Assembly (NCBI GenBank): GCA_031271755.1
Contig: JAISVB010000045.1
Location: forward strand, 1 to 64,000
DNA: 64,000 nt
Direction of reading: 5' to 3'
Origin: Culturomica sp.
Lineage (GTDB): Bacteria; Bacteroidota; Bacteroidia; Bacteroidales; Marinifilaceae
Below the pieces are notes generated by a model. That model saw only the letters and a list, made by a program, of their open reading frames with translations, did not search any database and was not told where the DNA came from. Positions 20,626-40,592 of the stretch are shown in pieces. The position numbers and the translations under genes are program-made. Within the stretch, counting starts at the first letter, position 1, and each line of letters opens with the position of its first letter.

Positions 20626-21339
20626 ATGCAAAACAAACGGATAACCATTTGTGCCTGCACCTCACGGGCATGGATGGACAAGGAAAAGGCAGCCGGAATA
20701 GCGGCAGCCCTGAAAAACGAAGGATATGAGGTGGCAATGGTACCCGATCTGTGCCGGAAGGCCATGGAAGCCTCCCCGGAACTGCCGGAAATCGCCGCCG
20801 GAGTGATCCTGGCCTGCCACCCGCGGGCGGTGCATTCCCTGCTGGAGTGGGCGGGACAGGACGCCAAACAGGTGGAGGATATCCGCAGCAACAGCCGGGA
20901 AGAGGCGCTTGCCCGCCTGGGGATCTCCTGTTCGGAAACACGGGACGCCGCGGAAAAAGAGCGCTTCCGGAATGAAATCGCCGCATTCCCAGCCGAAAAC
21001 GGGACGGACGCCTGGTACCCCGTACTGGACAAGACTAAGTGCATCGAGTGCGGCAAATGCCACGACTTCTGCCTGTTTGGGGTCTATACCGTAGCCAACA
21101 AACGGGTCAGGGTAACACAACCGCAGAACTGCAAAAACAACTGCCCGGCCTGCGCCCGCATGTGCCCGAACCGAGCCATCATCTTCCCCAAATACGAAAA
21201 ATCACCCATCAACGGAGGGACGGCACTCGAAGAGACCTTTACCCCCGGCGAGATGGACGCCATGTACCGGGAGCGCCTGCAACAGCGCCTGCAACAGCGA
21301 AAAGCCGGCATACCACTACTCAAAAAAGAGGGCGAATGA
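20626..21339 (+). CDS. two-cluster ferredoxin with an N-terminal HdrA/MvhD-like cysteine domain
   Basis: The start at 20626 (MQNKRITICACTSR) is preferred; the frame is open 105 bases further upstream but those residues look non-coding. The 237-residue product has an N-terminal domain of about 110 residues with scattered cysteines (ICACTSR, VPDLCRK, VILACHPRAV). C-terminally it carries two 4Fe-4S sites: C139, C142, C145, C149 and C169, C173, C176, C180. The first domain resembles pieces of heterodisulfide-reductase-type electron carriers, but I cannot name it firmly. The stop codon overlaps the ATG of the radical SAM gene, so it is likely the dedicated electron donor for that enzyme. Confidence 0.75.
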   Translation: MQNKRITICACTSRAWMDKEKAAGIAAALKNEGYEVAMVPDLCRKAMEASPELPEIAAGVILACHPRAVHSLLEWAGQDAKQVEDIRSNSREEALARLGISCSETRDAAEKERFRNEIAAFPAENGTDAWYPVLDKTKCIECGKCHDFCLFGVYTVANKRVRVTQPQNCKNNCPACARMCPNRAIIFPKYEKSPINGGTALEETFTPGEMDAMYRERLQQRLQQRKAGIPLLKKEGE

Positions 21340-22553
21340 CACGCAGGGAATACGCCGCCAACGCAAAAGCAGCCCTCCGGATATTCACGGAGTGCCCTCC
21401 CCGGATCGTCTGGAAATTCATGTACAACTTCGGGTGGAAAAGCATGCGCAACATCCGCCGCTTTGAAAAAAGGCAGGCCGGAGGAAAATCCTTCTTCCCC
21501 GCCTTCGTCATGATCTCTGTAACGGAAAACTGCAACTTGGCGTGCAGCGGTTGCTGGGTCTCCGGCGGCGGGAAAAAATCCCTCTCCCCGCAGCAGTTGG
21601 ACGGCATCATCCGCAGCAGCAAAGCGAAAGGCTCCTGCTTCTTCGGCATCCTCGGCGGCGAACCGTTGATGTACAAAGGGTTGTTGGATGTATTGGAGAA
21701 ACACCCCGATTGCTACTTTCAGTTGTTTACCAACGGCATCCTGCTGACGGAAGAGGTTGCGATGCGCCTCAGAAAAATGGGAAACGTCACCCCCCTGATC
21801 AGCATCGAAGGGCTACAGGAAGAGAGCGACGCCCGCCGCGGCAAAAACAACGTCTTCGAGCGGACACTGGCCGGCGTGCGCGCCTGCCGGAAAGCCGGCC
21901 TCATCTTCGGCGCTGCGGCCAGCATCTGCAAAAGCAATTACCACGACTTGGTCAACAGGGAATACATCGAACGGATCGCCAAAGAGGGGGCGCACTACCT
22001 GTGGTACTACCTCTACCGGCCGGTGGGAGCCCTCCCCAACGCCGCAAATGCTTTGGACAAGGAAGAGGTACTCGCCTTCCGCCGCTTCGTATCCGAACAG
22101 CGGAAAGACGCCCCCCTCTTTATCATCGAAACCTATTGGGACGACAAAGGAAACGCGCTTTGCCCGGGAGCCACCGGCATGAGCCACCACATCTCCCCGT
22201 CGGGAGCGCTCGAATTCTGCCCCCCCATCCAGATGGCCAAGGAGTTTCTCAACGAAGAGGGATCCAACCTGGCGGAGCTGTTTGAAAACTCGCATTTTCT
22301 GGCCGACTTCCGGAAAATGACGGCCGAAAGTTCCCGCGGCTGTATCCTGCTGGAAAATCCGCAGAAACTCAGGGCATTTCTGGAACAACACGGGGCTATC
22401 GACACCACCTCCCGCCGGACGGTATGGGAAGAGTACCAAAAAATGACCCCGCTGGCCGGCCACAACCTGCCGGGAAACGAGATCCCCGAAGCCAACCCCC
22501 TCTACCGGTTCGTCAAAAAAAGGTACTTCTTCGGTTTCGGAGCTTACGGGTAA
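21336..22553 (+). CDS. radical SAM protein of unknown substrate
   Basis: The true start is the ATG overlapping the ferredoxin stop (ATGA, 21336-21339), giving 405 residues. The [4Fe-4S]/SAM motif is C66-x3-C70-x2-C73 in TENCNLACSGCW. LGGEPL is the SAM-binding GGE motif, and LISIEG and AASICKSNY follow in the barrel. Cysteines late in the protein (ALCPGA, LEFCPP, SRGCILL) could hold an auxiliary cluster. It is broadly like radical SAM proteins that act on peptides or lipids, including the hopanoid enzyme HpnH, but no diagnostic HpnH feature is visible. Its operon with DUF116-prenyl synthase and a cyclase-like gene suggests a lipid or isoprenoid substrate. That is inference. Confidence 0.8.
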   Translation: MTRREYAANAKAALRIFTECPPRIVWKFMYNFGWKSMRNIRRFEKRQAGGKSFFPAFVMISVTENCNLACSGCWVSGGGKKSLSPQQLDGIIRSSKAKGSCFFGILGGEPLMYKGLLDVLEKHPDCYFQLFTNGILLTEEVAMRLRKMGNVTPLISIEGLQEESDARRGKNNVFERTLAGVRACRKAGLIFGAAASICKSNYHDLVNREYIERIAKEGAHYLWYYLYRPVGALPNAANALDKEEVLAFRRFVSEQRKDAPLFIIETYWDDKGNALCPGATGMSHHISPSGALEFCPPIQMAKEFLNEEGSNLAELFENSHFLADFRKMTAESSRGCILLENPQKLRAFLEQHGAIDTTSRRTVWEEYQKMTPLAGHNLPGNEIPEANPLYRFVKKRYFFGFGAYG

Positions 22554-22594
22554 CCGGATCACCGCACCACCACACCGACAAGCAGAGAAAAACC

Positions 22595-23449
22595 ATGAGA
22601 AACAAAAAAGAAAAAATAACGGTACAGGTGAGTAACAGCATGCAGGAAAAAAAGAGAAAAGGAGCCAGAAGCATAAAAGAGATCCCGGAAGATATTTTGG
22701 AGCAGTTGAACCGCGGAGAGATCGAAACCGCGAATCTGGTTGAATTTCTGGGCATCGACGCAAGGGTACTGCTTGAAACCGTATTGACGCAGCAGAACAG
22801 AAAAGAGTACCTGCAACCGATCCTGGAGCAAATCGACCGGCTGGACAAACATACGTTCGTTACCATCAATGCAACCATCGGGGAAGGACTTTACGAGCAG
22901 ACTGCCGGGCACCGGGACTGCGGTTTCCTGCCGGCGATCTCCACCCATCCGTCGGATTTAGTCCGCTCCTGGGCGACCGTCCTGATCGGCAGGAACTCCG
23001 CGCTGAACATGGAGCAGACGCTTCAAAACATACGCCCCTTTGCCGCCGACAAACACTTCAACGTCCGGGAGTGTGCGTGGAGCGCCGTCAGGCACAACAT
23101 CATCCAAAACTTAGACGAAAGCATACGGATCCTGTCGGGCTGGGCAAAAGACAAGGACGAAAACATCCGGCGTTTTGCCAGCGAGGCGACCAGACCGCGC
23201 GGCGTTTGGTGCGAACAGATTGCTGTATTAAAAGAAAATCCCGAAGCAGGCCTGCCCATACTGGAACCGTTAAAATCGGATCCCTCCGGATACGTTCAGA
23301 ACAGCGTCGGGAACTGGCTGAACGACGCCGGCAAAACACAGCCCGGATTTGTGCGAAACCTTTGCAGGCGCTGGGAAAAAGAGAGCGGAACCAAAGAGAC
23401 GGCATACATCATCAAAAGGGCGCTCAGAACCATCGACAAAGTTCAATAG
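22595..23449 (+). CDS. DNA alkylation-repeat protein (AlkC/AlkD-like)
   Basis: The ATG at 22595 gives 284 residues. After a basic N-terminus the protein is built of HEAT-like helical pairs: LVRSWATVLIGRNS, FNVRECAWSAVRHNI, ENIRRFASEATRPRGVWC, and DPSGYVQNSVGNWLNDAGK. These match the DNA_alkylation (AlkC/AlkD) superfamily, which removes N3- or N7-alkylated bases by stacking against the lesion. Family members of this branch have not all been shown to be glycosylases. It lies 41 bp after the radical SAM gene and 9 bp before the DUF116-prenyl synthase gene, an unexpected neighbour for a repair protein. One possibility is that it protects against a reactive product; equally it may simply be a passenger. 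Confidence 0.8.
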   Translation: MRNKKEKITVQVSNSMQEKKRKGARSIKEIPEDILEQLNRGEIETANLVEFLGIDARVLLETVLTQQNRKEYLQPILEQIDRLDKHTFVTINATIGEGLYEQTAGHRDCGFLPAISTHPSDLVRSWATVLIGRNSALNMEQTLQNIRPFAADKHFNVRECAWSAVRHNIIQNLDESIRILSGWAKDKDENIRRFASEATRPRGVWCEQIAVLKENPEAGLPILEPLKSDPSGYVQNSVGNWLNDAGKTQPGFVRNLCRRWEKESGTKETAYIIKRALRTIDKVQ

Positions 23450-23458
23450 TCTTTACCT

Positions 23459-25066
23459 ATGGAAACAACGCAAAAATACACCGTCCCGCAACCTTACGAA
23501 GAGCGCCGCCGCCTGCGAAGCCTGATCCACCGCTTCGTGAGCGCCCTCCCGTGGGCGCCCCCGCTCTCCGTGGACGACCTCTCCGGCCTCTCCGACAGGC
23601 TCATCCGGGAGCACGGATTGGACGCATCCATCAAAGGGTGGCTCATGGTAGAGATCCACAACAGTGCATGGCACGAAACGGTAGCTTCCATTCCCCGCGA
23701 CAAACGCCTCCTCCTGCTGCCCAAATGCCTCAGCCACTCCGGACAATGTGAGGCGGAAATCGACGACCTGGGACTCCTGTGTCACCGTTGCCGCCGCTGT
23801 ACCATCCCGGACCTGCAGGAGTATGCCGACAGCTTGGGCACTATGAGCATGGTGGCGGAAGGCTTCACCTCCGTCATCGGACTGATCGAAAACCGGGTGG
23901 TAGACGCCGTCATCGGCGTCGGCTGCTTAGATTCGCTCGAAAAAGCCTTCCCCCTGTTGATCGACCATGCCGTCCCCGGCTTAGCCATACCGCTGAACAG
24001 GGCCGGCTGTAAAGATACGGAAGCAGACGAGGAATACGTCCGCCAACTGACCGGCATGCAATCGGACACAAAAGCGAACCTGCTGGATTACGACTACGTG
24101 AAATCCACCGTACAGGGCTGGTTCACCCCGGAGAACCTGGCCGCCCTGCTCCCTCCCGCCGGCGACCAAACCTCCGTCGTTGCGCAGGAGTGGCTGAGCG
24201 GCGACGGCAAAAGATGGCGCCCCTACCTGCTGGCCTCCGTCTATATGGCCATCACCGGTGAAAAAGAGATACCCCCGGAGATCCAACGGGCAGCGGTAGC
24301 CGTAGAGTGCTTCCACAAAGCCTCCCTTGTCCACGACGACCTACAAGACCGCGATGCCACCCGCTACGGCAAACAGACCGTCCATGCCGCACACGGCGAC
24401 GCCGTCGCCATCAACGTCGGCGACCTGCTGCTGGGGGAAGGCTACCGCCTGCTGGCGACATGCGGGAACATGGAACTGCTGCAAGTGGCGGCGGAGGCGC
24501 ACATCGCCCTCTGCAAAGGCCAGGGAATGGAGCTGGAATGGAGCGCCCGCCCGCAACCATTCACCCTCAATTTCGTCCTGGAGATCTTCCGCAACAAAAC
24601 CGTCCCCGCCTTCGACGTCGCCCTCACCCTGGGCGCTATCTGCGCCGGTGCAGACGCCGAACTGCAAACCACCCTCCACCGCTACTCCCAAGCCATCGGC
24701 ATCGCCTACCAATTGCAGGACGACCTCGAAGACTTCGACACAGACCAACCGCAAGACGATCCGAAAAACCCCGACACAGAGCCGCCGCAAACCATACGCC
24801 CCTCCGCCGTCCTTGCCGCCCTCTGCGAACAACACCCGGCCGAAGCCATCGCACAAACGCTCCTCCGCTACCGCGTGAATCCTGCGCGTGACCAAGAGTT
24901 GAACGACGCCATCGAACAAGTCCGCCAACTGACCGGCCAATACCACCAAGAGGCACTGGCAACCCTGCACCACATCAAGCACGTTGAACTAAAACGCCTG
25001 CTCTTCCGCGTCACCCGACGGATCTTAAAAAAACAGGCAGTTGAAACAATCAAATCGCTGGTTTAA
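23459..25066 (+). CDS. DUF116 / polyprenyl diphosphate synthase fusion
   Basis: A 535-residue two-domain protein. Residues about 30-200 are DUF116, with conserved cysteines C90, C97, C108, C111 and C114 (PKCLSHSGQC, LLCHRCRRC) that look like a metal or Fe-S site. Residues about 225-535 are a trans-isoprenyl diphosphate synthase: GKRWRP for diphosphate binding, first aspartate motif DDLQD (293-297), and second DDLED (421-425). Stand-alone synthases of about 300-325 residues elongate allylic diphosphates with IPP. Both catalytic aspartate motifs are complete, so activity is likely; chain length cannot be read. DUF116 proteins are otherwise found in anaerobes near radical SAM genes, and here the two halves are joined in one chain. 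Confidence 0.88.
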   Translation: METTQKYTVPQPYEERRRLRSLIHRFVSALPWAPPLSVDDLSGLSDRLIREHGLDASIKGWLMVEIHNSAWHETVASIPRDKRLLLLPKCLSHSGQCEAEIDDLGLLCHRCRRCTIPDLQEYADSLGTMSMVAEGFTSVIGLIENRVVDAVIGVGCLDSLEKAFPLLIDHAVPGLAIPLNRAGCKDTEADEEYVRQLTGMQSDTKANLLDYDYVKSTVQGWFTPENLAALLPPAGDQTSVVAQEWLSGDGKRWRPYLLASVYMAITGEKEIPPEIQRAAVAVECFHKASLVHDDLQDRDATRYGKQTVHAAHGDAVAINVGDLLLGEGYRLLATCGNMELLQVAAEAHIALCKGQGMELEWSARPQPFTLNFVLEIFRNKTVPAFDVALTLGAICAGADAELQTTLHRYSQAIGIAYQLQDDLEDFDTDQPQDDPKNPDTEPPQTIRPSAVLAALCEQHPAEAIAQTLLRYRVNPARDQELNDAIEQVRQLTGQYHQEALATLHHIKHVELKRLLFRVTRRILKKQAVETIKSLV

Positions 25067-25083
25067 TTTTACGCTTTTATCAA

Positions 25084-25109
25084 AAAGTGCGGATTTAATT
25101 CCGCACTTT
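25084..25109 (+). terminator. hairpin after the DUF116-prenyl synthase gene
   Basis: Perfect 10-bp arms (25084-25093 and 25100-25109) around a 6-base loop, 18 bases after the stop codon. The right arm ends in TTT, though no long T-run follows. This probably ends the upstream transcription unit, so the ATPase gene that follows needs its own promoter. Confidence 0.6.
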
Positions 25110-25179
25110 CGCTATTCTGCGAGAAATAAAACCTGCTATTACGGAATTAGATACGAATATTTTAAAAATTCCCTCTCAA

Positions 25180-25236
25180 TTTGATCCGAATTTTTCAAAT
25201 AAATGTTGTATATTTGATCCGAGATTTTCAAATAAA
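25180..25236 (+). promoter_or_regulatory. two direct copies of a 24-bp dyad over the ATPase promoter
   Basis: TTTGATCCGA followed by a variable pair and TTTTCAAATAAA occurs at 25180-25203 and 25213-25236, a 33-bp period. Within each copy TTTGA and TCAAA form an inverted repeat. A TATATTTG -7 box (25209-25216) runs into the second copy, and the ATPase ATG is at 25242. This arrangement looks like an operator pair. Confidence 0.65.
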
Positions 25237-25241
25237 CAAAC

Positions 25242-26564
25242 ATGGCTTATAGCAAACGCAGCATAGACACGGTACTGTTGGTATGGAAGACAAATCCCGA
25301 CAGAAAACCGTTACTGATAAGGGGGGCGCGTCAGGTCGGCAAATCTTCTTCCGTAGAACAATTCGGCGCCTGTTTCGAGCATTTTGTCCCGGTAAACTTT
25401 GAGAAAACTAAAAACTTACAATCCCTGTTTGACGGTGATTTGGATGTAAAAGAGATCTGCCTGAAACTTTCAGTACAATTCAACACCCCGATCATACCCG
25501 GAAAAACACTGCTTTTCTTCGACGAAATCCAGATCTGCCCCAATGCCATCGTCGCCTTGCGCTATTTCTACGAAGATTACCCTGAACTGCATGTCATTGC
25601 GGCAGGTTCACTGTTGGAATTTGCACTCGAAGAACTACCCACTTTCGGTGTCGGCCGCATTGACTCCTTATTTATGTACCCTTTTTCGTTCCAGGAATTT
25701 ATGTTTGCCTGCGGCGAAGAACGCTTGTGGAACCAAGTATGTCAATCCTCGCCCGAAAAACCGCTTGCTCCTGTTTTTCACGAAAAATGTTCGGAGCTTT
25801 TGAAAAAATATTTACTGATTGGCGGAATGCCTGCCGCCATCTCCAATTTCCTGAAAAACAACGACATACTGCAAGTACAAAAAGTACTCGACAGCTTGAT
25901 CGTGTCGTTTCAGGACGACTTTGCAAAATACAAAAAAAGAGTGCCCACCTTACTCTTACGCGAAGTCTTTGAAGCGATTGTCAAGCAAGCGGGCGGAAAA
26001 TTTATCTACTCAAAAGCGGCAGCAACAAGCCAATACAACATAAAACAGGCGGTTAATATGCTGATCATGGCAGGGTTGGTCATTCCTGTGGTCAGCAGTT
26101 CGGCAAACGGCATACCGCTCGGAGCGGAGGCGAACCATAAAAAAACCAAAATGTTATTGCTCGACACAGGAATTTTTCAACGCCTGTTGGGCTTGGAACT
26201 TTCGGATTTTCTATTCTCAAACGATTTTGAAACCATCAACAAAGGCTTCATCGCCGAACAATTTGCCGGATTGGAACTGATCAAAAATTCATCGCCTTAC
26301 ACAGCTGAAAATCTGTATTTTTGGACAAGAGAAAAAGAAAAAAGCCAGGCAGAAATAGACTATCTGATCCAAAAAAACGGAACAATCATACCCATTGAAG
26401 TAAAATCAGGCAAAAGCGGCAAAATGCAAAGCATGCACCTGTTTCTCGCCGAAAAACAGGCAGAATATGGTATTCGGACTTCGCTCGAAAACTTTACGCA
26501 ATATGGCAACATCCGGGTCTATCCATTATATGCGATCGGGAACATAAAAACCAACCTATGGTAG
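25242..26564 (+). CDS. AAA ATPase with C-terminal DUF4143 domain
   Basis: A 440-residue member of the Bacteroidetes AAA_14/DUF4143 family. Walker A is IRGARQVGKSS (about residues 27-37) and Walker B is LLFFDEIQICP. The middle carries PFSFQEFMFACGEE. DUF4143 follows, ending with a nuclease-like strand pattern EIDYLIQKN...IPIEVKSGK, where the E-x-D and ExK residues resemble a PD-(D/E)xK core. The biological role of this abundant family is not established. It has its own promoter with paired dyads, lies between a terminator hairpin and an ABC permease gene that it overlaps by 7 bp, and is more AT-rich than the preceding operon. It looks like a later insertion. Confidence 0.85.
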   Translation: MAYSKRSIDTVLLVWKTNPDRKPLLIRGARQVGKSSSVEQFGACFEHFVPVNFEKTKNLQSLFDGDLDVKEICLKLSVQFNTPIIPGKTLLFFDEIQICPNAIVALRYFYEDYPELHVIAAGSLLEFALEELPTFGVGRIDSLFMYPFSFQEFMFACGEERLWNQVCQSSPEKPLAPVFHEKCSELLKKYLLIGGMPAAISNFLKNNDILQVQKVLDSLIVSFQDDFAKYKKRVPTLLLREVFEAIVKQAGGKFIYSKAAATSQYNIKQAVNMLIMAGLVIPVVSSSANGIPLGAEANHKKTKMLLLDTGIFQRLLGLELSDFLFSNDFETINKGFIAEQFAGLELIKNSSPYTAENLYFWTREKEKSQAEIDYLIQKNGTIIPIEVKSGKSGKMQSMHLFLAEKQAEYGIRTSLENFTQYGNIRVYPLYAIGNIKTNLW

Positions 26565-27475
26565 CCTACATTAAATTACAATACCTCCTCACCAACCGGA
26601 AACTATCCGCCTTCGGGGTACATCCGGCCATCGGTTACCCGCTCCTGCTGCTCCTTTTCATCGGACTCTCAACTTACCTGTTTAACAAAACCACCTTTGC
26701 TCCCTACGCATACACACTCATAGCACTCTATTTTACCGCAAAACTAAGCGAGATCCGGCGGAATGATTTCCTCAAAATCTGCTTTGGCCGCATACAGTAC
26801 AGAAAAATACGCCTGTTGGAAAACCTGATCGTCGTTCTGCCTTTTGCTATTTTCCTGCTATACAAAGAGCACTACATTCCTCCCTTCCTGCTTGTGGCCA
26901 CGACGATTTTACTGGCGCTGCTGAATGTCAACATAACGTACAATATACCCCTTCCGACCCCCTTCTACAAAAAACCGTTTGAATTCACGGTCGGTTTCAG
27001 GAACACATTTTTCCTGTTCATCATCGCATACGCGCTCACCGCCATTGCCGTCACCGTAAACAACTTCAATCTCGGCATCTTTTCGTTGCTGTTGATATTC
27101 CTCACCGTACTCTGCTACTATTTAAAACCCGAAAACGAATACTTCGTCTGGGCGTACAGCGCAACACCTGCCCAATTCCTGATCGAAAAGATCAAAACGG
27201 CGTTTCGGTTCTCTTTTTACCTGTGCCTTCCGATATTGCTTACGTTAAGCCTGTTCTATACTGAAAATACAGGCGTACTGCTTCTCTTTACCGCGTTAGG
27301 ATATTTGTATCTGGTCGCGGTTATCCTGGCAAAATACGCTGCATTTCCCGGAGAAATCGACTTGATGCAAGCGATCATGCTGAGCATTACATTCATTTTT
27401 CCGCCGATGCTCATAGCCGTCATCCCGCTATTCGCCCGGCAATCGGTACACGAACTTAAACGACTTTTGCCATGA
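26558..27475 (+). CDS. ABC-2-like transporter membrane subunit
   Basis: A 305-residue hydrophobic protein with about eight predicted membrane segments (e.g. YPLLLLLFIGLSTYLF, LLENLIVVLPFAIFLL, FFLFIIAYALTAIAV, IMLSITFIFPPMLIAVI). No catalytic motif is visible. Its last codons overlap the start of an ABC ATPase gene (27472-27475), which identifies it as the permease of that transporter. The conserved IRRNDFLKICF segment between membrane helices could be the coupling region. The substrate is unknown; the downstream cyclase-like gene suggests export of an isoprenoid product or a precursor. Confidence 0.75.
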   Translation: MVAYIKLQYLLTNRKLSAFGVHPAIGYPLLLLLFIGLSTYLFNKTTFAPYAYTLIALYFTAKLSEIRRNDFLKICFGRIQYRKIRLLENLIVVLPFAIFLLYKEHYIPPFLLVATTILLALLNVNITYNIPLPTPFYKKPFEFTVGFRNTFFLFIIAYALTAIAVTVNNFNLGIFSLLLIFLTVLCYYLKPENEYFVWAYSATPAQFLIEKIKTAFRFSFYLCLPILLTLSLFYTENTGVLLLFTALGYLYLVAVILAKYAAFPGEIDLMQAIMLSITFIFPPMLIAVIPLFARQSVHELKRLLP

Positions 27476-28152
27476 TCGACATCCGCAACCTTTCCAAAAA
27501 CTTTGGGACTTTACAGGTCCTGAAAAACATCGACATTCGGTTCGAACCGGGAAAAGTCTACGGGATCATCGGAGAGAACGGAGCCGGAAAAACCACCTTA
27601 TTCCGCTGCATCGCAGGGTTGGAAAACTACGACGGAGAGATCCGCTCAGGGCTTCATCCCCTGAAAAACTACCTGGGATTCCTGCCGACCGACCCGTTTT
27701 TCTTTAGCAAAATAACCGGGAAAGAATACATCCGCCTGCTCTGCAACGCCCGGAAAAAAGAGATGCCGAACCTGGAAAGCAAAAACATATTCGACCTGCC
27801 CCTGAACCAATACGCCTCCACCTACTCAACAGGCATGAAAAAGAAGCTGGCTTTAACGGCCATCCTGTTGCAGGAAAACCACTATTTCATACTGGACGAA
27901 CCATTCAACGGCATCGACATCCACAGCAACATCATCGTCGTCGACCTGATCAAAAAACTGAAAGCATTGGGAAAGACCGTACTCATATCCTCCCACATAT
28001 TTTCCACCTTAAAAGAGACTTGCGATGAAATCTACCCGTTGAAGGACGGAAAGATCAGCCCAACGGTCACCCGGGAAAATTTCGACACACTGGAGCTCGA
28101 AATCAAAGCATTTACCATTGGGAACAAAATAGAGCAATTAGAACTGAAATAA
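27472..28152 (+). CDS. ABC transporter ATP-binding protein
   Basis: A 226-residue ABC ATPase with every motif: Walker A GENGAGKTTL (about residues 34-43), signature-like STGMKKKLALTA, Walker B YFILDEPFNGID, and a switch histidine in ISSHIF. The Q-loop lies near YLGFLPTDP. The signature YSTGMKKK is the variant common in ABC-2 exporters. It overlaps the permease gene by 4 bp and is followed after 12 bp by the cyclase-like gene. Confidence 0.9.
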   Translation: MIDIRNLSKNFGTLQVLKNIDIRFEPGKVYGIIGENGAGKTTLFRCIAGLENYDGEIRSGLHPLKNYLGFLPTDPFFFSKITGKEYIRLLCNARKKEMPNLESKNIFDLPLNQYASTYSTGMKKKLALTAILLQENHYFILDEPFNGIDIHSNIIVVDLIKKLKALGKTVLISSHIFSTLKETCDEIYPLKDGKISPTVTRENFDTLELEIKAFTIGNKIEQLELK

Positions 28153-28164
28153 TCCGCCACACAC

Positions 28165-29061
28165 ATGCCCGTCACCCTCTCGACAAAACTGCTCCACACC
28201 CTGCAAAAAGGGAAAGCCCGATTAGGGGCGGAAGCGCTTCGCCGCATCGCCCGCTTCGTGGAGTCGCAACGGACGGCAGAACACGCCTTCCGAAACAAGA
28301 GCGGAAAAGCAGACCTGTACTACACCGCGTTCGGATGGACATTGTCCCGCCTGCTGGGCATCGGGATCGATCCGCAAAAAATGCACCGCTACCTCTCGCA
28401 ACAGCAACCGGAACAGTTAGACCTCGTCCACTACGCCGCCTACATACGCTGCCGGATGCTCCGCCAATGGATAAAAAACGGGAAAGCAGGCCTGTTTGTG
28501 CAATCGCTCCTTCCGTTCAAGATCAGGGCATTGGACACATTCACCGCCGTCCCCCACGCCGACCTGCACGCCCCCTACACCCAATTCCTCTGGCACTCCC
28601 TGCGGGAAGACGCCGGCCGGCGCACCCCCAACACCCCGGATACCCTAGCCGACTACCACGTGCCCGGCGGCGGCTACCGGAACACCCGGGACGGCCTCAC
28701 CGCCACCACCAATGCCACCGTAGCCGCGCTCGCCCTCCGGGGACCATCCGCCGGCTACCGGGCAAACGAAGACCTGCACTACCTGCGCAACCTCCAGGAC
28801 ACCTCCGGCGGCTTCCGCGCCGCCCCCGCCGCCCCCTTCCCCGACCTGCTCTCCACCGCAACCGCCCTCTTCGTGCTCGACTGCTACCACACCCCTTCCA
28901 ACTACCCGGCACAACACTTCATCGAAAGCCACTGGCTGGACTCAGGAGGCTTCTCCGCCACCCTCCCGGAAGACCACAGCGACGTCGAATACACCTTCTA
29001 CGGACTGCTGGCGTTGGGAGCAAGCGCACAAGAGTTTAGAAAGAAGCAACTCGGGAGATAA
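28165..29061 (+). CDS. prenyltransferase/squalene-oxidase-repeat (terpene-cyclase-like) protein
   Basis: A 298-residue all-helical protein with a C-terminal alpha-toroid segment of the prenyltransferase/squalene-cyclase superfamily. Repeats include GGGYRNTRDGLTATTNATVAALAL, LRNLQDTSGGFRA and HWLDSGGFSATLPE with DVEYTFYGLLALG. It is too short for a full squalene-hopene cyclase (about 630) and I see no DxDD acid motif. It may be a partial toroid, a lipid-binding relative, or a prenyltransferase beta-like subunit. It closes the operon-like run that began with the ferredoxin. DNA here is very GC-rich compared with the ATPase gene upstream. Confidence 0.7.
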   Translation: MPVTLSTKLLHTLQKGKARLGAEALRRIARFVESQRTAEHAFRNKSGKADLYYTAFGWTLSRLLGIGIDPQKMHRYLSQQQPEQLDLVHYAAYIRCRMLRQWIKNGKAGLFVQSLLPFKIRALDTFTAVPHADLHAPYTQFLWHSLREDAGRRTPNTPDTLADYHVPGGGYRNTRDGLTATTNATVAALALRGPSAGYRANEDLHYLRNLQDTSGGFRAAPAAPFPDLLSTATALFVLDCYHTPSNYPAQHFIESHWLDSGGFSATLPEDHSDVEYTFYGLLALGASAQEFRKKQLGR

Positions 29062-29120: not shown

Positions 29121-29151
29121 GTAATTTGGCGGTCAGTGACCGCCAAATTAC
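29121..29151. repeat. 31-bp near-perfect palindrome at an ATPase breakpoint
   Basis: Arms of 15 bp (29121-29135 and 29137-29151) flank a single central G. The palindrome contains the stop codon of the truncated ATPase fragment. It lacks a T-run in the direction of that gene, so it is not an obvious terminator. Confidence 0.7.
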
Positions 29152-29351
29152 TCACGCCTGATCCAAGTCGTATCGGCCGCATACAGATCATCCGCCGTAA
29201 CAAAATAATGCGGTACATCCGTTTTTGACAGGAGTTGCTTGATCAGAGTGGTTTTACCCACCTGTCGCGGCCCGACCAACACCTGAATGAATTTTCGGGA
29301 TTCTTCGGATCGCTTCATGATCTCCTGTAACATAGTTCTTTCAAACGCCAT
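29148..29351 (-). pseudogene. truncated N-terminal fragment of a DUF4143-type ATPase
   Basis: Only 67 residues remain. They include a start typical of the family (MAFERTMLQEIMKRSEESRKFIQVLVG) and a complete Walker A (GPRQVGKTT), then a stop shortly after YAADTTWIRRE. Full proteins have about 330 further residues. The break coincides with a 31-bp palindrome. Between this gene and the divergent YjbR gene is an AT-rich segment with the dyad ATTAG...CTAAT, comparable in position to the dyads before the intact ATPases. Confidence 0.75.
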
Positions 29352-29422: not shown

Positions 29423-29782
29423 ATGAACATTGAAGAATTTCGCGAATATTGCCTGTCGATAAAGGGTTCTACGGAATCGCTACCCTTTCTGAACCACCAT
29501 GTTCTGGTGTTTAAGGTGATGGATAAAATGTTCGCCTATATCCCTTTAGCACCCAAAGACGGCATATTCCGGGCTGACCTCAAATGCAATCCCGAACGGT
29601 CGATGGAGTTGCGCGAAAAGTACAACGGGATCACCGAAACCGATTTTAAGACCCCCTTATGGAACCTGGTCACATTGGAAAGTGATGTTCCCGACCGGCT
29701 GATAGAAGAATTGATCCGACATTCGGTAGACGAAGTCATTAAAAAACTACCCAAACGCAAACAGGAAGCGTACCGGAAATGA
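29423..29782 (+). CDS. MmcQ/YjbR family DNA-binding-like protein
   Basis: A 119-residue single-domain protein of the MmcQ/YjbR family: MNIEEFREYCLSIKGSTESLPF at the N-terminus, KMFAYIPL in the middle beta sheet, then KCNPERSMELREKY and the WNLVTL strand. Structures in this family have a double-stranded-DNA-binding CyaY-like fold, but the biological role is unknown. Its stop overlaps the start of the nucleotidyltransferase gene, so the two are co-translated. Confidence 0.85.
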   Translation: MNIEEFREYCLSIKGSTESLPFLNHHVLVFKVMDKMFAYIPLAPKDGIFRADLKCNPERSMELREKYNGITETDFKTPLWNLVTLESDVPDRLIEELIRHSVDEVIKKLPKRKQEAYRK

Positions 29783-30279
29783 TGATGAGCGAAAACGATG
29801 CCACTGATCTGCTGAGAAAGACCGAACACATCGGCGTTGAGATCTGGATCGACGGCGGTTGGGGCGTGGATGCGCTTTTGGGGCGACAAACACGGCTGCA
29901 CAATGACATAGATATTTTTGTCCAAAAGAAAGACAGCGCTGCATTTACAGCCATGTTGCTTTCAAATGGTTACCGCGAAACGGAAGTCGAATTTACTACC
30001 AACGACCATACGGCCTGGATCGATCCGGACAATCGCATCATAGACCTGCACCTGTTCGAATTTACCGAAACCGGATCACTCTGTTTTGAGGGAGGAATCT
30101 ATCCGGCGGATATACTGAACGGAAAAGGAACAATCGGAGGAATAGCCGTACGTTGCCTGACCGTCGAAGCACAAATATTGTACCACCAGGGTTATAAGCT
30201 CAAAGAGAAGGACATACAAGACATACTGCTGCTTTGCAGTACTTTCGGGCTGCCTGTTCCGGAAGGAATTCAAAGGTGA
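29779..30279 (+). CDS. aminoglycoside/lincosamide-type nucleotidyltransferase
   Basis: A 166-residue protein opening with three consecutive Met codons. The core WIDGGWGVDALLGRQTRLHNDIDIFV holds the GG...D.D nucleotidyltransferase motif, and VRCLTVEAQILYHQGYKLKEKDIQDI matches the C-terminal helix of the LnuA/ANT(2'')-like family. Members adenylylate lincosamides or aminoglycosides; many chromosomal relatives have no proven drug substrate. Resistance is possible but not demonstrated here. It overlaps the YjbR stop (ATGA) and converges on the NapH-like gene. Confidence 0.75.
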   Translation: MMMSENDATDLLRKTEHIGVEIWIDGGWGVDALLGRQTRLHNDIDIFVQKKDSAAFTAMLLSNGYRETEVEFTTNDHTAWIDPDNRIIDLHLFEFTETGSLCFEGGIYPADILNGKGTIGGIAVRCLTVEAQILYHQGYKLKEKDIQDILLLCSTFGLPVPEGIQR

Positions 30280-30311: not shown

Positions 30312-31598
30312 TTACTGTGGTGTCCGGGCGGTCGTTTCCTCCCGGTTTTGCATGTTCTGCGGACAGTAATTGAAACACCTCCCGCAGGCGACGCAGGCAG
30401 CCCGGTCGATTTCGTAGTGTTTGCGGGTACGTTTGACGGAGAGACCGATGAGGGTGAAGCCGATGACAAGGCCGAGGAGAGCGCCGGCGCCGGTGGCGTA
30501 GCGTTTGAAGTCGCCCTGGATCTCTTCGTAAGCGGCGGTGAGGGCTTCGACAGTACCGCCCTGTCCGTAGAAGGCCTCTAACTCTAAGGAGGGCGCACCC
30601 TGCGGATTGGCTTCGTGCTGCATGACGAGGTCGTAGAGACGCACCTCTTTGTGGGCGCGGCTCAGGTCGCTGCTGACGGAGCGCATGAGGAAAGCGCCGG
30701 CAAGAACAAGGAGCGGAAGGATGATGAGGTAGCCTACGATCCGCCGGACGCCTTGCGGGCGGCTCTCTTTGACTTTGTTCTCGTAGGGCGGTCGGATGGC
30801 GTCCACCGGGCAGGCGTTGCGGCAGAGGTCGCAGTTGATGCACGATTGGGGGGTGATGCTGATCTTCCGGACGGATACCCGCGAAAACAGGCTCAGCAAG
30901 GCGCCGTAGGGACAGAGGAAGCGGCAGAAGGGCCTGCCTGTAAAGACGGCCGCTACCAGTAAGAGTGCGCCGAAAAGGAGTAATCCGAGATCTCCGCCCA
31001 GCCGGAAGATCCCGATAAAGGGGTCGAAGCGGCAGATGATAAAGCTGCTTCGGGTGACGGCGTAAAGGAGCGCAAAAATCAGGTATATCCAGGGGATCAT
31101 GCCCAGTACCGTGGTGAGCGACTTGGAGAGCCTGTAGTTTTTCAGGTTCACCAACTCCTGCAAAGCGCCGAACGGGCAAACGCCGGCGCAGAATACCCTG
31201 CCGAAAAGAAGGGCGAACCCGATCGGGAGGATAAAAAAGAGCAGGACAGAGAGGGGCAGGATGTAAGTGCTGTCCACGCCTGCAAGCGCTACGTTCTGAA
31301 TAGCACCGATACTGCATACACACCCACTGCGGAAAAATCCGAACCAGGCGACCGAGATCACGGATACCCACAGGATGGGTTTGCGCGTCCGCTTCCGGAG
31401 CACCGCCCACGCCACAATACCCATCAGCAGCACCAACAGGAGGATATCCACGCTTGTCCACACCGCTTCGTTGGGCACTGCGTAAGTGATATCGGGGTAT
31501 TGGTAACCGGATTCAAAGTCCGGCCGGGGGAAGCGGTTTTGGGCGTTGGCTGCTCCGGATAAGATCAGCAACAGCCCAATATAAAGGATTCTTTTCAT
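30312..31598 (-). CDS. NapH/NosR-like membrane 4Fe-4S protein
   Basis: Translation from 31598 gives a signal-like N-terminus (MKRILYIGLLLILSGAANAQ) and about 428 residues; a longer frame upstream has no such feature. Several membrane segments are interleaved with the paired motifs CAGVCPFGAL and CRFLCPYGAL that define the NapH/NosR/RdxA electron-transfer family. Soluble 4Fe-4S sites follow (CINCDLCRNACP and, near the C-terminus, CVACGRCFNYCPQ). Such proteins pass electrons between the quinone pool or cytoplasm and periplasmic carriers. It shares one base with the upstream exported ferredoxin gene, so the two should form a transmembrane relay. Confidence 0.85.
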   Translation of the reverse strand: MKRILYIGLLLILSGAANAQNRFPRPDFESGYQYPDITYAVPNEAVWTSVDILLLVLLMGIVAWAVLRKRTRKPILWVSVISVAWFGFFRSGCVCSIGAIQNVALAGVDSTYILPLSVLLFFILPIGFALLFGRVFCAGVCPFGALQELVNLKNYRLSKSLTTVLGMIPWIYLIFALLYAVTRSSFIICRFDPFIGIFRLGGDLGLLLFGALLLVAAVFTGRPFCRFLCPYGALLSLFSRVSVRKISITPQSCINCDLCRNACPVDAIRPPYENKVKESRPQGVRRIVGYLIILPLLVLAGAFLMRSVSSDLSRAHKEVRLYDLVMQHEANPQGAPSLELEAFYGQGGTVEALTAAYEEIQGDFKRYATGAGALLGLVIGFTLIGLSVKRTRKHYEIDRAACVACGRCFNYCPQNMQNREETTARTPQ

Positions 31599-32176
31599 TA
31601 CTCTTTCAGTTTGTAGGCGGTATCGAGGGGTACGCGGGTGATGGCGCCCGAAGGGCAGACAGTGGCTATCCGGCACTCGTTGCAATCCTTGCACAGGTCG
31701 CGTTTGATCTGGAGGTAGAGCGAACCGTTGCCGAAGGAGCTGCACCCTTTGACGCATTTACCGCAGCCGTTGCAGAGCCGCTCGTTGATGGTGTATTCAA
31801 AATAGGGCTCCTCCACGAATTGGCGTTCGATGGCGCCGGTGGGGCACATCAGGTTCTCGGCGGCGGTGTTGAGTTCTTTGACATTGGAGCGGTAGTAGCC
31901 GCCGCAGAGGTCGCAGTATCCGCATACTTTGTTGGCATGGATGCATTTAACGGCCGAAACCGGGAGCACGCAGTGGGTTTCGCAGCGGCCGCACTGGGTG
32001 CATTTTTGCGGGTCGATTTGCCAGTAGTAGCTGGCTTTTGCTCCTTTTACGTTCCCGATCAATCCGCCGGCAACGGCGAGGATGGCGCCGCCCGCCACCG
32101 TCGAACCCAGCACCCGCAGGAATTCCCGGCGCGATACGGGGCTTTGGCCCATCGGATGTTTCTCTTTTTTTTCCAT
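31598..32176 (-). CDS. Tat-exported polyferredoxin
   Basis: A 192-residue protein. The N-terminus has a twin-arginine signal (SRREFLRVLGS followed by a hydrophobic stretch to GLIGNVKG), so it is exported folded with its clusters. Cysteine motifs for three to four 4Fe-4S clusters follow: CTQCGRCETHC, CGYCDLCGG, CNGCGKCVKGC and CKDCNECRIATVCP. It resembles the periplasmic NapG or DmsB-like electron carriers. It is sandwiched between the NHL propeller (7 bp gap) and the NapH-like gene (1 bp overlap), which makes a single exported electron-transfer module likely. Confidence 0.85.
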   Translation of the reverse strand: MEKKEKHPMGQSPVSRREFLRVLGSTVAGGAILAVAGGLIGNVKGAKASYYWQIDPQKCTQCGRCETHCVLPVSAVKCIHANKVCGYCDLCGGYYRSNVKELNTAAENLMCPTGAIERQFVEEPYFEYTINERLCNGCGKCVKGCSSFGNGSLYLQIKRDLCKDCNECRIATVCPSGAITRVPLDTAYKLKE

Positions 32177-32183
32177 AGTCTTG

Positions 32184-33215
32184 TCAGATGGTTACTCCTT
32201 TCCGCAAAGGACAATCCGCTTTGCAGGTCGAACAGGCGGTCGCAGCGGCCTGTGTACTGTCGTAACGGTAAACGGAGATCCGGCTGTTGCCCGCTACAAA
32301 AAGCCGGCCTTTCAGAATCTTGACGTCGTAGGCCGTATGGCCGCCTCCCAGCGTTGGGCTGTCGAGCAGCAGACTGCGGAACGTCCCGTCCGTGCCGTAG
32401 CAACTGATGCGCGGCTTCCCCTTTTCGGAGGTGATGATCTCGCCCGCGGCGGTGTGTGTCAGGTGTACCGGGTTGCAGCATCCGCCGAACCTGCCGGCGG
32501 TTTCTCCCGCTTCGCCGAAGAAGCCGGTGTAGGCGCCGTCCGGCGTGTATTTCTCCACCCGGTGCCTGCCCGGATTGGAGCAATAGATCACCCCGTCCGC
32601 ATAGGTGATGCCGAACGAGTAACTGGGAACGATAAAGCCGTCGGGGCTTTGGATAAAGCGGACGAACTGCCCTTCCGCCGTGTATTGGCAGATGTTTTTG
32701 TTGGCCGCATCCGTCACAAAAAGGGCGGATGGGGTCAATGCCATGGAGCAGTAGTCAGCCGTGTCGTCACACGCTTCCCAGTCGCGCAGCCATTCGCCGG
32801 CCGGGCTGTACACCTCGATCCGGGCGGGGAAGAGCAGGTAGATGTGGCGCTCGTCGGCCGCAATGTCCCGGAGGTCACTGCCGACGGCAAAACTGTGCGC
32901 CAATGCCCCTGTCGTATCGTACATATAGATCTGATTGGAAGCGGCGACGATGAGCCGGTCGCCCGCCAGTTCAAAAGCCTCTATCGCACCGGGCGCCTGA
33001 AAGGAGGATTCCAATCTGTACGGGGAGGCAAAGCCCGGTTGGCCGCTGTTTGCCCCTTCCGGGCGAACGGATGCGTATGGCAGCGGAGCGGTCAGTTTCC
33101 TGTGCAGGAAAACACCCGCCACTCCCGCAATACCCACTCCCGCCACGGCAGTCCCGCACAGTTGCAGGAATTTCCGCCGCGATATGTTCTGCTCTTTATC
33201 TGCCTTTTGTTCCAT
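32184..33215 (-). CDS. Tat-exported NHL-type beta-propeller with C-terminal cysteine motif
   Basis: A 343-residue protein with a twin-arginine signal (SRRKFLQLCGTAVAGVG). The body is a six-bladed NHL-like propeller; blades read as repeats such as GDRLIVAASNQIYMYDTTGAL, DERHIYLLFPARIEVYSPAGEW and DGVIYCSNPGRHRVEKYTPDG. Near the C-terminus is CSTCKADCPL (C-x2-C-x3-C), which could bind a metal or cluster. Tat export and the two Fe-S genes downstream suggest it docks to the exported ferredoxin. I do not know a characterised homologue with this combination. An upstream 21-bp element recurs before the propeller gene ending at 40546. Confidence 0.7.
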   Translation of the reverse strand: MEQKADKEQNISRRKFLQLCGTAVAGVGIAGVAGVFLHRKLTAPLPYASVRPEGANSGQPGFASPYRLESSFQAPGAIEAFELAGDRLIVAASNQIYMYDTTGALAHSFAVGSDLRDIAADERHIYLLFPARIEVYSPAGEWLRDWEACDDTADYCSMALTPSALFVTDAANKNICQYTAEGQFVRFIQSPDGFIVPSYSFGITYADGVIYCSNPGRHRVEKYTPDGAYTGFFGEAGETAGRFGGCCNPVHLTHTAAGEIITSEKGKPRISCYGTDGTFRSLLLDSPTLGGGHTAYDVKILKGRLFVAGNSRISVYRYDSTQAAATACSTCKADCPLRKGVTI

Positions 33216-33349: not shown

Positions 33350-34198
33350 TCATGTTATATTCTTCAAAAGTTCAGCCGGCATTATTTCCATTTTTGAGAA
33401 GGCGAACAATTTCTTTCCCAAATCTTTCAGTGAAGCGCCAAGGTGGTATACAGCAGTGTCGATCAAGAGAAAACGGTCGTGAAAGACAGTAGATTCGTTG
33501 ATTGTTATCGGCGTGTACTGCGCGTTGTGTTTTGTCAAATCCAACTGCAATTGTGCGGAAATTTGCTTTGTATAAATGGTTGCGCCGACTTTCGCCTGCC
33601 GTTTCGACAACAGGAGTAAAACCGTTTCATCAATATAATTATCAAGCAGGAGAATCGTTTTCTTTGCCGATTTGATGAGGTCGGATACAAATAGGTAAGC
33701 ATCGAAAATCTGACCTTCAAAAAATATGCCTTCTTTAGGAGGCAGGGCGGTGCGGACAACGAAATCGATCTGTTTTTGGTGTTCCGACAGTTGCTGTTCG
33801 TGGCGGGAAAGTGTGTTGTCAATTTGCTCAAAACGTCGGTTGATGGCGTATCCCCGTAATAAATACTCTTTCAAAACCCGGTTTGCCCATTGACGAAACA
33901 GGGTACCTTGAACGGATTTTACACGATAGCCGACAGAAATGATCACATCCAGACTGTAAAAAGAAACAGGACGGTCAATATTTGTAATATGCAAATTTTG
34001 CATATTGCTTTCGGCATCGAGTTCTTTTTCCTTAAAAACATTGCCGATATGTTTTGAAATGACCGACTGGTCTCTGCCGAAAAGCAGAACCATTTGCGCC
34101 TGTGTAAGCCAAACGGTTTCGTGGTCAATGCGAACCTCCAATTGTACGACATCATTTGGTCTGTACAGTATCATTTCATTTTGAGTATTCATCTTCAT
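33350..34198 (-). CDS. RhuM-family (virulence RhuM) protein with phospholipase-D-like C-terminus
   Basis: A 282-residue protein. The N-terminal half has the family signature VWLTQAQMVLLFGRDQSVISKHI and FYSLDVIISVGYRVKS...FRQWANRVLKEYLLRGY, a DNA-binding-like domain. A short coiled coil leads to a C-terminal domain containing GATIYTKQ and FHDRFLLID, which resembles half of a PLD-type HxK active site (His-Asp-Arg here). Function is unknown; genes of this family occur singly in variable genome regions. It is AT-richer than its neighbours and interrupts the minus-strand envelope-redox block. A second copy starts at 63535. Confidence 0.78.
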   Translation of the reverse strand: MKMNTQNEMILYRPNDVVQLEVRIDHETVWLTQAQMVLLFGRDQSVISKHIGNVFKEKELDAESNMQNLHITNIDRPVSFYSLDVIISVGYRVKSVQGTLFRQWANRVLKEYLLRGYAINRRFEQIDNTLSRHEQQLSEHQKQIDFVVRTALPPKEGIFFEGQIFDAYLFVSDLIKSAKKTILLLDNYIDETVLLLLSKRQAKVGATIYTKQISAQLQLDLTKHNAQYTPITINESTVFHDRFLLIDTAVYHLGASLKDLGKKLFAFSKMEIMPAELLKNIT

Positions 34199-34234: not shown

Positions 34235-35677
34235 CTATATCACTTTGATGCATTTCACGGTATGGGCGTCCCGCACGATCAGCATCCCGTCGGCATAAGC
34301 CATGGGGCCCCAGGCATCGATCCCCTCCATGATCCGCTGTTTTTTTAGCAGCTTCATGCTGCGTTGCCCGACTTCGTACAGGTAGAGCTCCCCGTCATCC
34401 TTGAAAACGAAGAGGAGGTTGTTGATCAGGAGGTAGGGGCCGAGCCCGAAGCGTTCGTCGGCAGTGGAGGTCCATACCGGCGAGCGGAGGTCGGAAGGGG
34501 AATAGGCGACCAGCTTCCCCCGGTTGCCGCCCCCGTCCTTGGGCATGACGCTGATGATCATGTCGTTGTAGAAAAGGGGGGTCTGTTGTTCGCTGGATAA
34601 TCCCTCGTTGGGTTTGTGTTGTTCGGTGACGGTGGCTGTCCACTTAGTGCCGGAACGCTCTACCCGAAGCATCGCTCCCCCGGTTCCGTATCCCGCTACC
34701 ATAAAGATCCGGTTGGACGACAATTGGAGTGGTGAAGGGGCGACTACGGAGGGTTGCCATTTGCCGGTCTCCCACAGTAAAGTCCCCCGGTCGCCGGCTT
34801 CTGCCGAAATACCGCAAACACCGCCCACGCCGATGTAGACATACATTTTTTTTCCGCCCAGTGTCATCGGCATCACCGACGAGTGCGACATTTTGTATTT
34901 CAGTGTATTGGGAGTAGTCCAGAGGATCTCGCCGCTCTGCACATCCAATCCGGCCAAGAGCGTTTCTTCTCCGGCAGGCGCCAGGATGAGGGTGTTCTGA
35001 TCGACACGCGGGCACTGGCCGGTGTACCAGAAAGGGACTTCGGTCTTGAATGTTTTCTGCATATCGAGCGACCACTTCATCTCTCCGCTTACCGGGTCGC
35101 AGCACATCACATGTCCCGACGGCCCGATGGTGATGATGTAATCTTCGCCGACAGCCGGGACCGTTCGCGAGAAACCGTGGTTCCGCTTCATCGGCACGCG
35201 GTACCACCGGCGCCACAGTTCTTTGCCGCTCTCCAACGAGAAGCAGCGCAGGGCGTCGGAGCTCAACTGTTCGTTGTAATCCAGGAAATAGACTTTCCCG
35301 TTGTAGATGGCCGGCGCTGCATGCCCTTCCCCGGTTTCCACGCTCCACAGAACCGGATACTCCTCCCCGGAGGTGCGGATCCGGTCGGAGGTGGTGATGC
35401 GGTTGGTGGCCGACGCTCCCCGGAAACCGCTCCATTTACCGGTCAACCCGGAAGAGGCGTCGTCGTATTTCATAAAAAACTCGCCGATCAGTACGTCGTC
35501 CGCCGCCCGCGTCCGCCCCTCCGGCCGATTGTCAGCCCCCGGCGCCTGAATCGCCAGCTCCTCCCGGAGCGGATAGAGGTGCCACCCGATCACAAGACCG
35601 GCATAGATCAAAATAACCGAAACGGTAACACCCGCTACGATGCGTTTGCTTTTCACAACAGAACCCTTGAATTTCAC
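34235..35677 (-). CDS. membrane-anchored PQQ-like beta-propeller protein
   Basis: A 480-residue protein with one N-terminal membrane anchor (about residues 12-32, RIVAGVTVSVILIYAGLVIG) and no cleavage site, so it should face the periplasm. The rest is an eight-bladed propeller in which blades share the pattern G.VYFLD...LRCFSLESGKELW, seen in PQQ dehydrogenases and in the assembly factor BamB. It lacks the full length and catalytic calcium site of quinoprotein dehydrogenases, so PQQ binding is unproven. It belongs to a set of five such proteins in the window and likely scaffolds protein contacts or electron transfer in the envelope. Confidence 0.8.
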   Translation of the reverse strand: MKFKGSVVKSKRIVAGVTVSVILIYAGLVIGWHLYPLREELAIQAPGADNRPEGRTRAADDVLIGEFFMKYDDASSGLTGKWSGFRGASATNRITTSDRIRTSGEEYPVLWSVETGEGHAAPAIYNGKVYFLDYNEQLSSDALRCFSLESGKELWRRWYRVPMKRNHGFSRTVPAVGEDYIITIGPSGHVMCCDPVSGEMKWSLDMQKTFKTEVPFWYTGQCPRVDQNTLILAPAGEETLLAGLDVQSGEILWTTPNTLKYKMSHSSVMPMTLGGKKMYVYIGVGGVCGISAEAGDRGTLLWETGKWQPSVVAPSPLQLSSNRIFMVAGYGTGGAMLRVERSGTKWTATVTEQHKPNEGLSSEQQTPLFYNDMIISVMPKDGGGNRGKLVAYSPSDLRSPVWTSTADERFGLGPYLLINNLLFVFKDDGELYLYEVGQRSMKLLKKQRIMEGIDAWGPMAYADGMLIVRDAHTVKCIKVI

Positions 35678-40559: not shown

Positions 40560-40592
40560 CAAATATAAAACCGTAAGGTAAGAAGAATTTTT
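40560..40592 (-). promoter_or_regulatory. promoter region of the propeller gene, with shared element
   Basis: TATATTTG on the minus strand (40560-40567) matches the -7 consensus. Immediately upstream, 40572-40592 resembles the element before the NHL propeller gene (33241-33261). Confidence 0.4.

Follow-up and report, generated by a model that had tools for sequence, protein, structure and literature searches.

The window analysed here, a stretch of 64,000 nucleotides from Culturomica sp. (contig JAISVB010000045.1, positions 1 to 64,000), carries at 20626-29061 a run of plus-strand genes, four of which belong to a conserved cassette of five core genes. Core gene 1 (20626-21339) encodes a ferredoxin with an N-terminal Cys-containing domain that has no Pfam match and a C-terminal 4Fe-4S ferredoxin domain. 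Its stop and the start of core gene 2 (21336-22553) share the letters ATGA at 21336-21339, a 4-bp overlap; this second gene encodes a radical S-adenosylmethionine (SAM) protein of 405 amino acids (aa). Core gene 3 (23459-25066) is a fusion of DUF116 with a trans-prenyl diphosphate synthase (DUF116 E 4.7e-29, polyprenyl synthase E 2.9e-44). Core gene 4 (28165-29061) encodes a 298-aa protein with a weak Pfam Prenyltrans match, modelled as a single alpha-alpha toroid. The fifth gene, on the minus strand at 44517-46250, lies beyond this interval, 15 kb from the rest of the cassette, and encodes a class II terpene cyclase related to squalene-hopene cyclase (SHC). All five core genes are intact. The coordinates of the first block, the 4-bp overlap and the motifs CxxxCxxC, DDLQD and DDLED had been given in an earlier prediction made from the sequence alone (the original prediction) and were confirmed in the sequence.

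Related loci were collected via the fusion, 80 from named genome contigs and 15 from other Bacteroidales genomes (95 in total), and the genes beside the fusion were counted in a six-frame census whose denominators are the loci with enough flanking sequence. The ferredoxin gene is adjacent to the fusion in 78 of the 81 testable loci, the radical SAM gene in 80 of 88 and the toroid gene in 83 of 87, and the gene for the SHC-like cyclase stands directly downstream of the toroid gene in 73 of 81. The loci come from at least seven phyla (Bacteroidota, Verrucomicrobiota, Planctomycetota, Acidobacteriota, Lentisphaerota, Kiritimatiellota and KSB1), and the gene order is kept in all 15 extra Bacteroidales loci. 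Since one order recurs in seven phyla, the clustering of ferredoxin, radical SAM protein, fusion, toroid and cyclase is far above what chance would give. The original prediction had proposed a candidate Fe-S/isoprenoid operon of undescribed type, to be checked by conservation of the gene order without the inserted ATPase; both points are supported.

Absence of the SHC-like gene from the Verrucomicrobiales and others was considered and rejected. When 11 genomes lacking this gene at the fusion locus were searched as a whole, all gave a match: nine have a long SHC-like copy elsewhere (E 1e-130 or lower), one has two fragments and one a fragment at a contig end. In three Phycisphaerales loci (L064, L074 and L076), the position immediately 5' of the fusion gave no radical SAM homologue; its place may be taken by another protein or by one that has diverged strongly.

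Four further genes are interspersed in the first block of the window: a HEAT/DNA-alkylation-repeat protein (22595-23449; PF08713 E 7.5e-6, PF13646 E 2.2e-6), an AAA_14-DUF4143 ATPase assigned by Pfam (25242-26564), a hydrophobic membrane protein without Pfam match that is a putative ABC permease (26558-27475), and an ABC transporter ATPase matching Pfam ABC_tran (27472-28152), all on the plus strand. The HEAT protein, the AAA ATPase and the ABC ATPase were each found in none of the 95 related loci, and the HEAT and AAA genes are absent from the sister species as well. The permease was seen once, as a 105-aa remnant in that sister species (L003). We rejected all four as pathway members. Of the genes listed in the original prediction, which already took the AAA ATPase as inserted, the ferredoxin, the radical SAM protein, the fusion and the 298-aa protein thus stand and the other four fall away, and with them export by the ABC transporter of the window. 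Export as such is possible, given an unrelated FtsX-type ABC transporter encoded upstream of the cassette in genomes of the same family, where beta-propellers also lie upstream, and in one other lineage.

In other Bacteroidales, the cyclase gene and the accessory genes described below follow directly 3' of the toroid gene on the same strand, for which reason we take the window to hold one ancestral operon, broken into two convergent blocks, each of which has received insertions. Insertions plus an inversion or translocation would have produced this split. In the sister genome, the second block is arranged in yet another way. Scans for promoters and terminators in the window gave results at chance level only.

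The DUF116-prenyl synthase fusion retains both aspartate motifs, DDLQD and DDLED, whose aspartates are invariant in about 80 relatives. The DUF116 domain scores 101 bits against a gathering score of 25; its cysteines 97, 108, 111, 114, 156 and 184 are invariant, and Cys 90 is present in 80 of 81 sequences. An AlphaFold2 (AF2) model of the whole fusion has a mean confidence (pLDDT) of 88, and its synthase half shows the all-helical prenyl synthase fold, with Z of about 30 to farnesyl diphosphate, geranylgeranyl diphosphate and decaprenyl synthases. In a quick tree of 33 rows, with long branches present, the fused synthase domains form one clade (SH-aLRT, the Shimodaira-Hasegawa-like approximate likelihood ratio test, 99) apart from E. 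coli IspA and IspB and from ordinary Bacteroidales synthases. An ordinary octaprenyl synthase with unconserved neighbours, the case that would have spoken against the original prediction, was rejected on this separate grouping; the neighbours are conserved, and the fusion scores 90 bits against the curated octaprenyl synthase cut-off of 412. Counted from the first Asp motif, every fusion inspected has Ala at -5 and Phe at -8; the short-chain-type synthases of the host family have Tyr or Phe at -5. Because the small Ala at -5 and the invariant bulky Phe at -8 occupy positions of known role, the product is probably C20-C25 in length, an assignment we make with modest confidence.

The domain fusion itself is known: Makarova et al. 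noted it in 2015 in Psta_0175 of Pirellula staleyi and predicted DUF116 to be a flavodoxin-like, Cys-rich redox domain acting in electron transfer (PMC5898192). Psta_0175 and the protein of the window share the same fusion, whereas the passages on DUF116 in that paper offer the fusion and a general electron-transfer proposal only, naming no radical SAM protein, ferredoxin, toroid, cyclase or pathway.

For the toroid protein, an AF2 model was obtained at pLDDT 95. Its fold is closest to the beta subunit of RabGGTase (Z 20.3, root-mean-square deviation 2.9 over 243 aa), which is also its best profile match (E 7e-11). With the beta subunits of protein prenyltransferases (RabGGTase, GGTase-I and FTase) it has the single toroid in common, at Z 20 over about 240 aa; it differs from them in having 14% identity, no Zn ligands, no alpha subunit and a bacterial operon as its setting. 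As the toroid is built of repeats, the equivalence of residues to the zinc site is uncertain, and the test used was therefore the presence of conserved Cys or His, of which there are none among 65 toroid sequences; a Zn site is accordingly lacking, and a true protein prenyltransferase was rejected. The original prediction had described this protein as terpene-cyclase-like. That assignment was likewise rejected, since DxDD is not among the conserved columns; the real cyclase, at 44517-46250 on the minus strand, had been missed. The monodomain class II cyclase MstE (PDB 6SBB-6SBE), also a compact toroid and present in the Foldseek matches, is a weaker match; the toroid family of the window has no DxDD.

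The SHC-like proteins carry the class II acid motif DxDDT (VPDADDT in the window) in 62 of 63 sequences, and their best solved relative by profile is SHC (E 6e-34). A first phmmer search had ranked drimenyl diphosphate synthase above SHC, an order reversed by the profile search. Class II prenyl-diphosphate cyclases (the drimenyl diphosphate synthase SsDMS, and PtmT2) nevertheless show detectable homology to the cassette cyclase and act on the type of substrate proposed here; they differ in that their profile match is weaker than that of SHC and the cyclase of the window is longer. The squalene/phytoene synthase family (PF00494) was not found in the genome of the window (97.7% complete), nor in the sister genome or any of the seven same-family genomes tested, though all of them encode the cassette. 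Because of this absence, we think it unlikely that the cyclase depends on squalene; its substrate would most likely be the product of the neighbouring prenyl synthase, that is, of the fusion. Bacillus makes C35 sesquarterpenes with a heptaprenyl synthase, YtpB and an SHC-type cyclase, bypassing squalene. A squalene-independent route to an SHC-type cyclase would be common to both systems; in the loci read here no YtpB was seen (no genome-wide search was made), and a radical SAM protein, a ferredoxin and DUF116 are found instead.

The cysteines of the ferredoxin are invariant (69 of 69 sequences), and its N-terminal Cys-containing domain is a separate gene in many loci of the Planctomycetes-Verrucomicrobia-Chlamydiae (PVC) group and Acidobacteria. 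In the radical SAM protein (PF04055, 70 bits), the motif CNLACSGC is intact; CxxxCxxC is invariant, as are five further cysteines, including C277, C296 and C337, across all lineages aligned; these five were considered as possible ligands of a C-terminal auxiliary Fe-S cluster of the SPASM/twitch kind. Its nearest solved relative is the peptide maturase SkfB (E 2e-18). It forms a family of its own and scores far below every curated equivalog cut-off listed; for the adenosyl-hopene transferase HpnH (TIGR03470), it reaches 48 bits against a cut-off of 225.

The cassette of the genus studied here groups with Parabacteroides- and Prevotellaceae-type sequences and not with the divergent copy, of about 40% identity, that the other genera of its own family have. 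Vertical inheritance within the host family was rejected (approximately unbiased test, p = 0.00013 for the own genus and family placed together). Different cassette types are likewise found in two genomes from another family (f125). Horizontal transfer is the simplest reading. A contig labelled Eubacteriales (L006) carries a Bacteroidales-type cassette that groups with genome G411 (SH-aLRT 99); it is probably a mislabelled or mis-binned metagenome-assembled genome.

Taken together, we consider it rather probable that the five genes form a dedicated, horizontally mobile cassette for a cyclised isoprenoid made without the usual squalene step. According to this proposal, which starts from family membership and the intact first and second aspartate-rich motifs (FARM and SARM), the fusion would condense isopentenyl diphosphate to a linear prenyl diphosphate. 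The toroid, resembling the isoprenoid-binding beta subunits of protein prenyltransferases, may bind or convert this chain. The SHC-like class II enzyme would protonate it at VPDADDT and thereby close rings, its substrate most likely being what the fusion delivers, and the radical SAM protein would modify the scaffold with electrons from the ferredoxin and perhaps from the Cys-rich DUF116 domain.

Several points weigh against this proposal. The product, the substrate, the activity of all members and the order of the steps are predictions, and the census frequencies are conditional on the fusion, via which the loci were collected. Many Prevotella-like genomes encode a shortened toroid of about 220 aa, and the protein shows no known catalytic motif. 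The SHC-like proteins fall far short of the curated SHC cut-offs (66 versus 431 bits for TIGR01507, and 99 versus 323), so that their chemistry may differ from that of SHC, and a squalene synthase is encoded by several cassette genomes of other lineages. Finally, comparison of the DUF116 sequence with solved structures gave matches at chance level only.

Among the open-licence papers in PubMed Central (PMC), neither the five-gene cassette nor its product was found described; only PMC5898192 mentions the fusion. What is added here to that known fusion, judged by the passages of the paper that deal with it, is a terpenoid biosynthetic cluster of undescribed composition. An isoprenoid pathway thus appears to have gone unnamed despite a gene order kept across seven phyla and in many gut- and rumen-type Bacteroidales. 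The cassette brings together a radical SAM enzyme, the Cys-rich DUF116, a class II cyclase and a toroid that resembles protein prenyltransferases, offers a way into DUF116 function and predicts a new lipid. If this lipid were redox-active, it would join the few membrane electron carriers known.

The possibility of a redox role is raised by the accessory genes of the second block. On the minus strand, the cyclase gene is followed by four propellers, namely three PQQ-like beta-propellers (42887-44092, 41598-42872 and 39341-40546) and a BamB/PQQ-like one (34235-35677), then by a Cys-rich NHL-type propeller with a signal for twin-arginine translocation (Tat; 32184-33215), a Tat-like NapG-type polyferredoxin (31598-32176) and a NapH-type membrane ferredoxin (30312-31634, start approximate). 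Beta-propellers occur in 59 of the 95 loci and the Tat-signal NHL-type protein in about 40 Bacteroidota loci; within the Bacteroidota clade to which the window belongs, the latter and the NapG/NapH-like proteins are linked to the cassette. With its many invariant cysteines and a CxxCxxxCP tail, the NHL-type protein is a possible unrecognised Fe-S or metal-binding propeller. For the Bacteroidota, these Tat/NapGH-like and propeller links weakly suggest a coupling of the pathway or its product to redox chemistry of the envelope.

One may therefore ask whether the product is a redox-carrying lipid, a substitute for or companion of quinones in which the radical SAM protein sets a redox group on a cyclised isoprenoid used by the NapG/NapH-like and propeller proteins. 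The encoding of NapG/NapH-type and Tat Fe-S proteins with the cassette in Bacteroidota would fit, as would the electron-transfer role predicted for DUF116 in the relevant part of PMC5898192. So would the background of the genus: MenD, MqnA-type enzymes, cytochrome bd and a third, long-chain-type prenyl synthase were not found in either of its genomes (that of the window and G831; for MenD, the sister gave sub-threshold matches only), yet the cassette is kept. On the other hand, cytochrome bd together with MenD or the futalosine enzymes is present in many cassette genomes, and other carriers possess a full quinone pathway; MenA, which scores above its cut-off in the genome of the window, is kept there, so that quinone scavenging is possible; and NapGH-like genes were not found beside the cassette in the own-family, Planctomycetota and Acidobacteriota loci read. 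We regard a redox carrier as unlikely on balance. Its boldest form strikes us as more doubtful still: a new class of cyclised isoprenoid membrane redox carrier or terpenoid cofactor, built by radical SAM enzyme and class II cyclase without squalene or quinone chemistry and used in NapGH-like envelope electron transfer, which would let bacteria lacking quinone biosynthesis keep membrane redox. The genus itself may consist of quinone-free or 1,4-dihydroxy-2-naphthoate (DHNA)-scavenging bacteria.

A hopanoid-type membrane terpenoid, that is, a sterol surrogate made from squalene and tailored by an HpnH-like radical SAM protein, would account for SHC as best solved relative, for HpnH among the weak radical SAM matches and for the squalene synthase of some cassette genomes. 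The hopanoid pathway indeed shares with the cassette a class II cyclase with DxDDT and repeat motifs; it parts from it in the missed equivalog cut-offs for hopene cyclase and HpnH, in the lack of squalene synthase in the window's genome, the sister and the seven same-family genomes, and in the dedicated prenyl synthase that is always present, which makes this explanation improbable. We hold it for distinctly improbable that the fusion merely supplies the MenA side chain in the genome of the window, for prenylation of scavenged DHNA, with the other genes unrelated. MenA is there, and besides the fusion there is only one other prenyl synthase, which is of short-chain type and has Tyr at -5; nine other genomes, however, have two ordinary prenyl synthases besides the fusion, which is therefore extra there, the cyclase and the toroid are conserved with the fusion, and MenA lies outside the cluster. 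Protein or peptide prenylation, with the toroid as a bacterial protein-prenyltransferase-like enzyme and the radical SAM protein as a peptide maturase, could appeal to RabGGTase/FTase beta subunits and SkfB as nearest relatives, but is very improbable for a toroid without conserved Cys or His, with no alpha-subunit or conserved short peptide gene seen (short open reading frames were not searched systematically) and with the conserved class II cyclase left unexplained.

Outside the Bacteroidota, the surroundings of the five-gene cassette differ. Upstream of the fusion, loci from PVC, Acidobacteria and KSB1 encode a CobW GTPase and a GcvH-like protein whose lipoyl-lysine is conserved; some of them add genes for a cysteine desulfurase and for a lipoate ligase (L079, L058, L066 and L075).

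In the window, the toroid gene is followed by a truncated AAA_14-type ATPase gene (29148-29351, minus strand, 67 codons) in which the P-loop RQVGKTT is present; it sits beside the intact AAA_14-DUF4143 gene inserted in the cassette. The second block is interrupted by a RhuM-like gene (33350-34198), a YhcG/DUF1016 nuclease gene (38272-39282) and a BRO-N gene (40592-41437), all on the minus strand, which suggests that this region has taken up insertions repeatedly. The window has a YjbR-family gene 3' of the toroid gene (29423-29782, plus strand); in the sister, the homologue (L003:7612-8001) stands between the radical SAM gene and the fusion; similar cargo has therefore been inserted at different points. 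Next to it, a plus-strand gene at 29779-30279 encodes a nucleotidyltransferase similar to aminoglycoside-2''-adenylyltransferases (PF10706, 102 bits), with a possible role in resistance.

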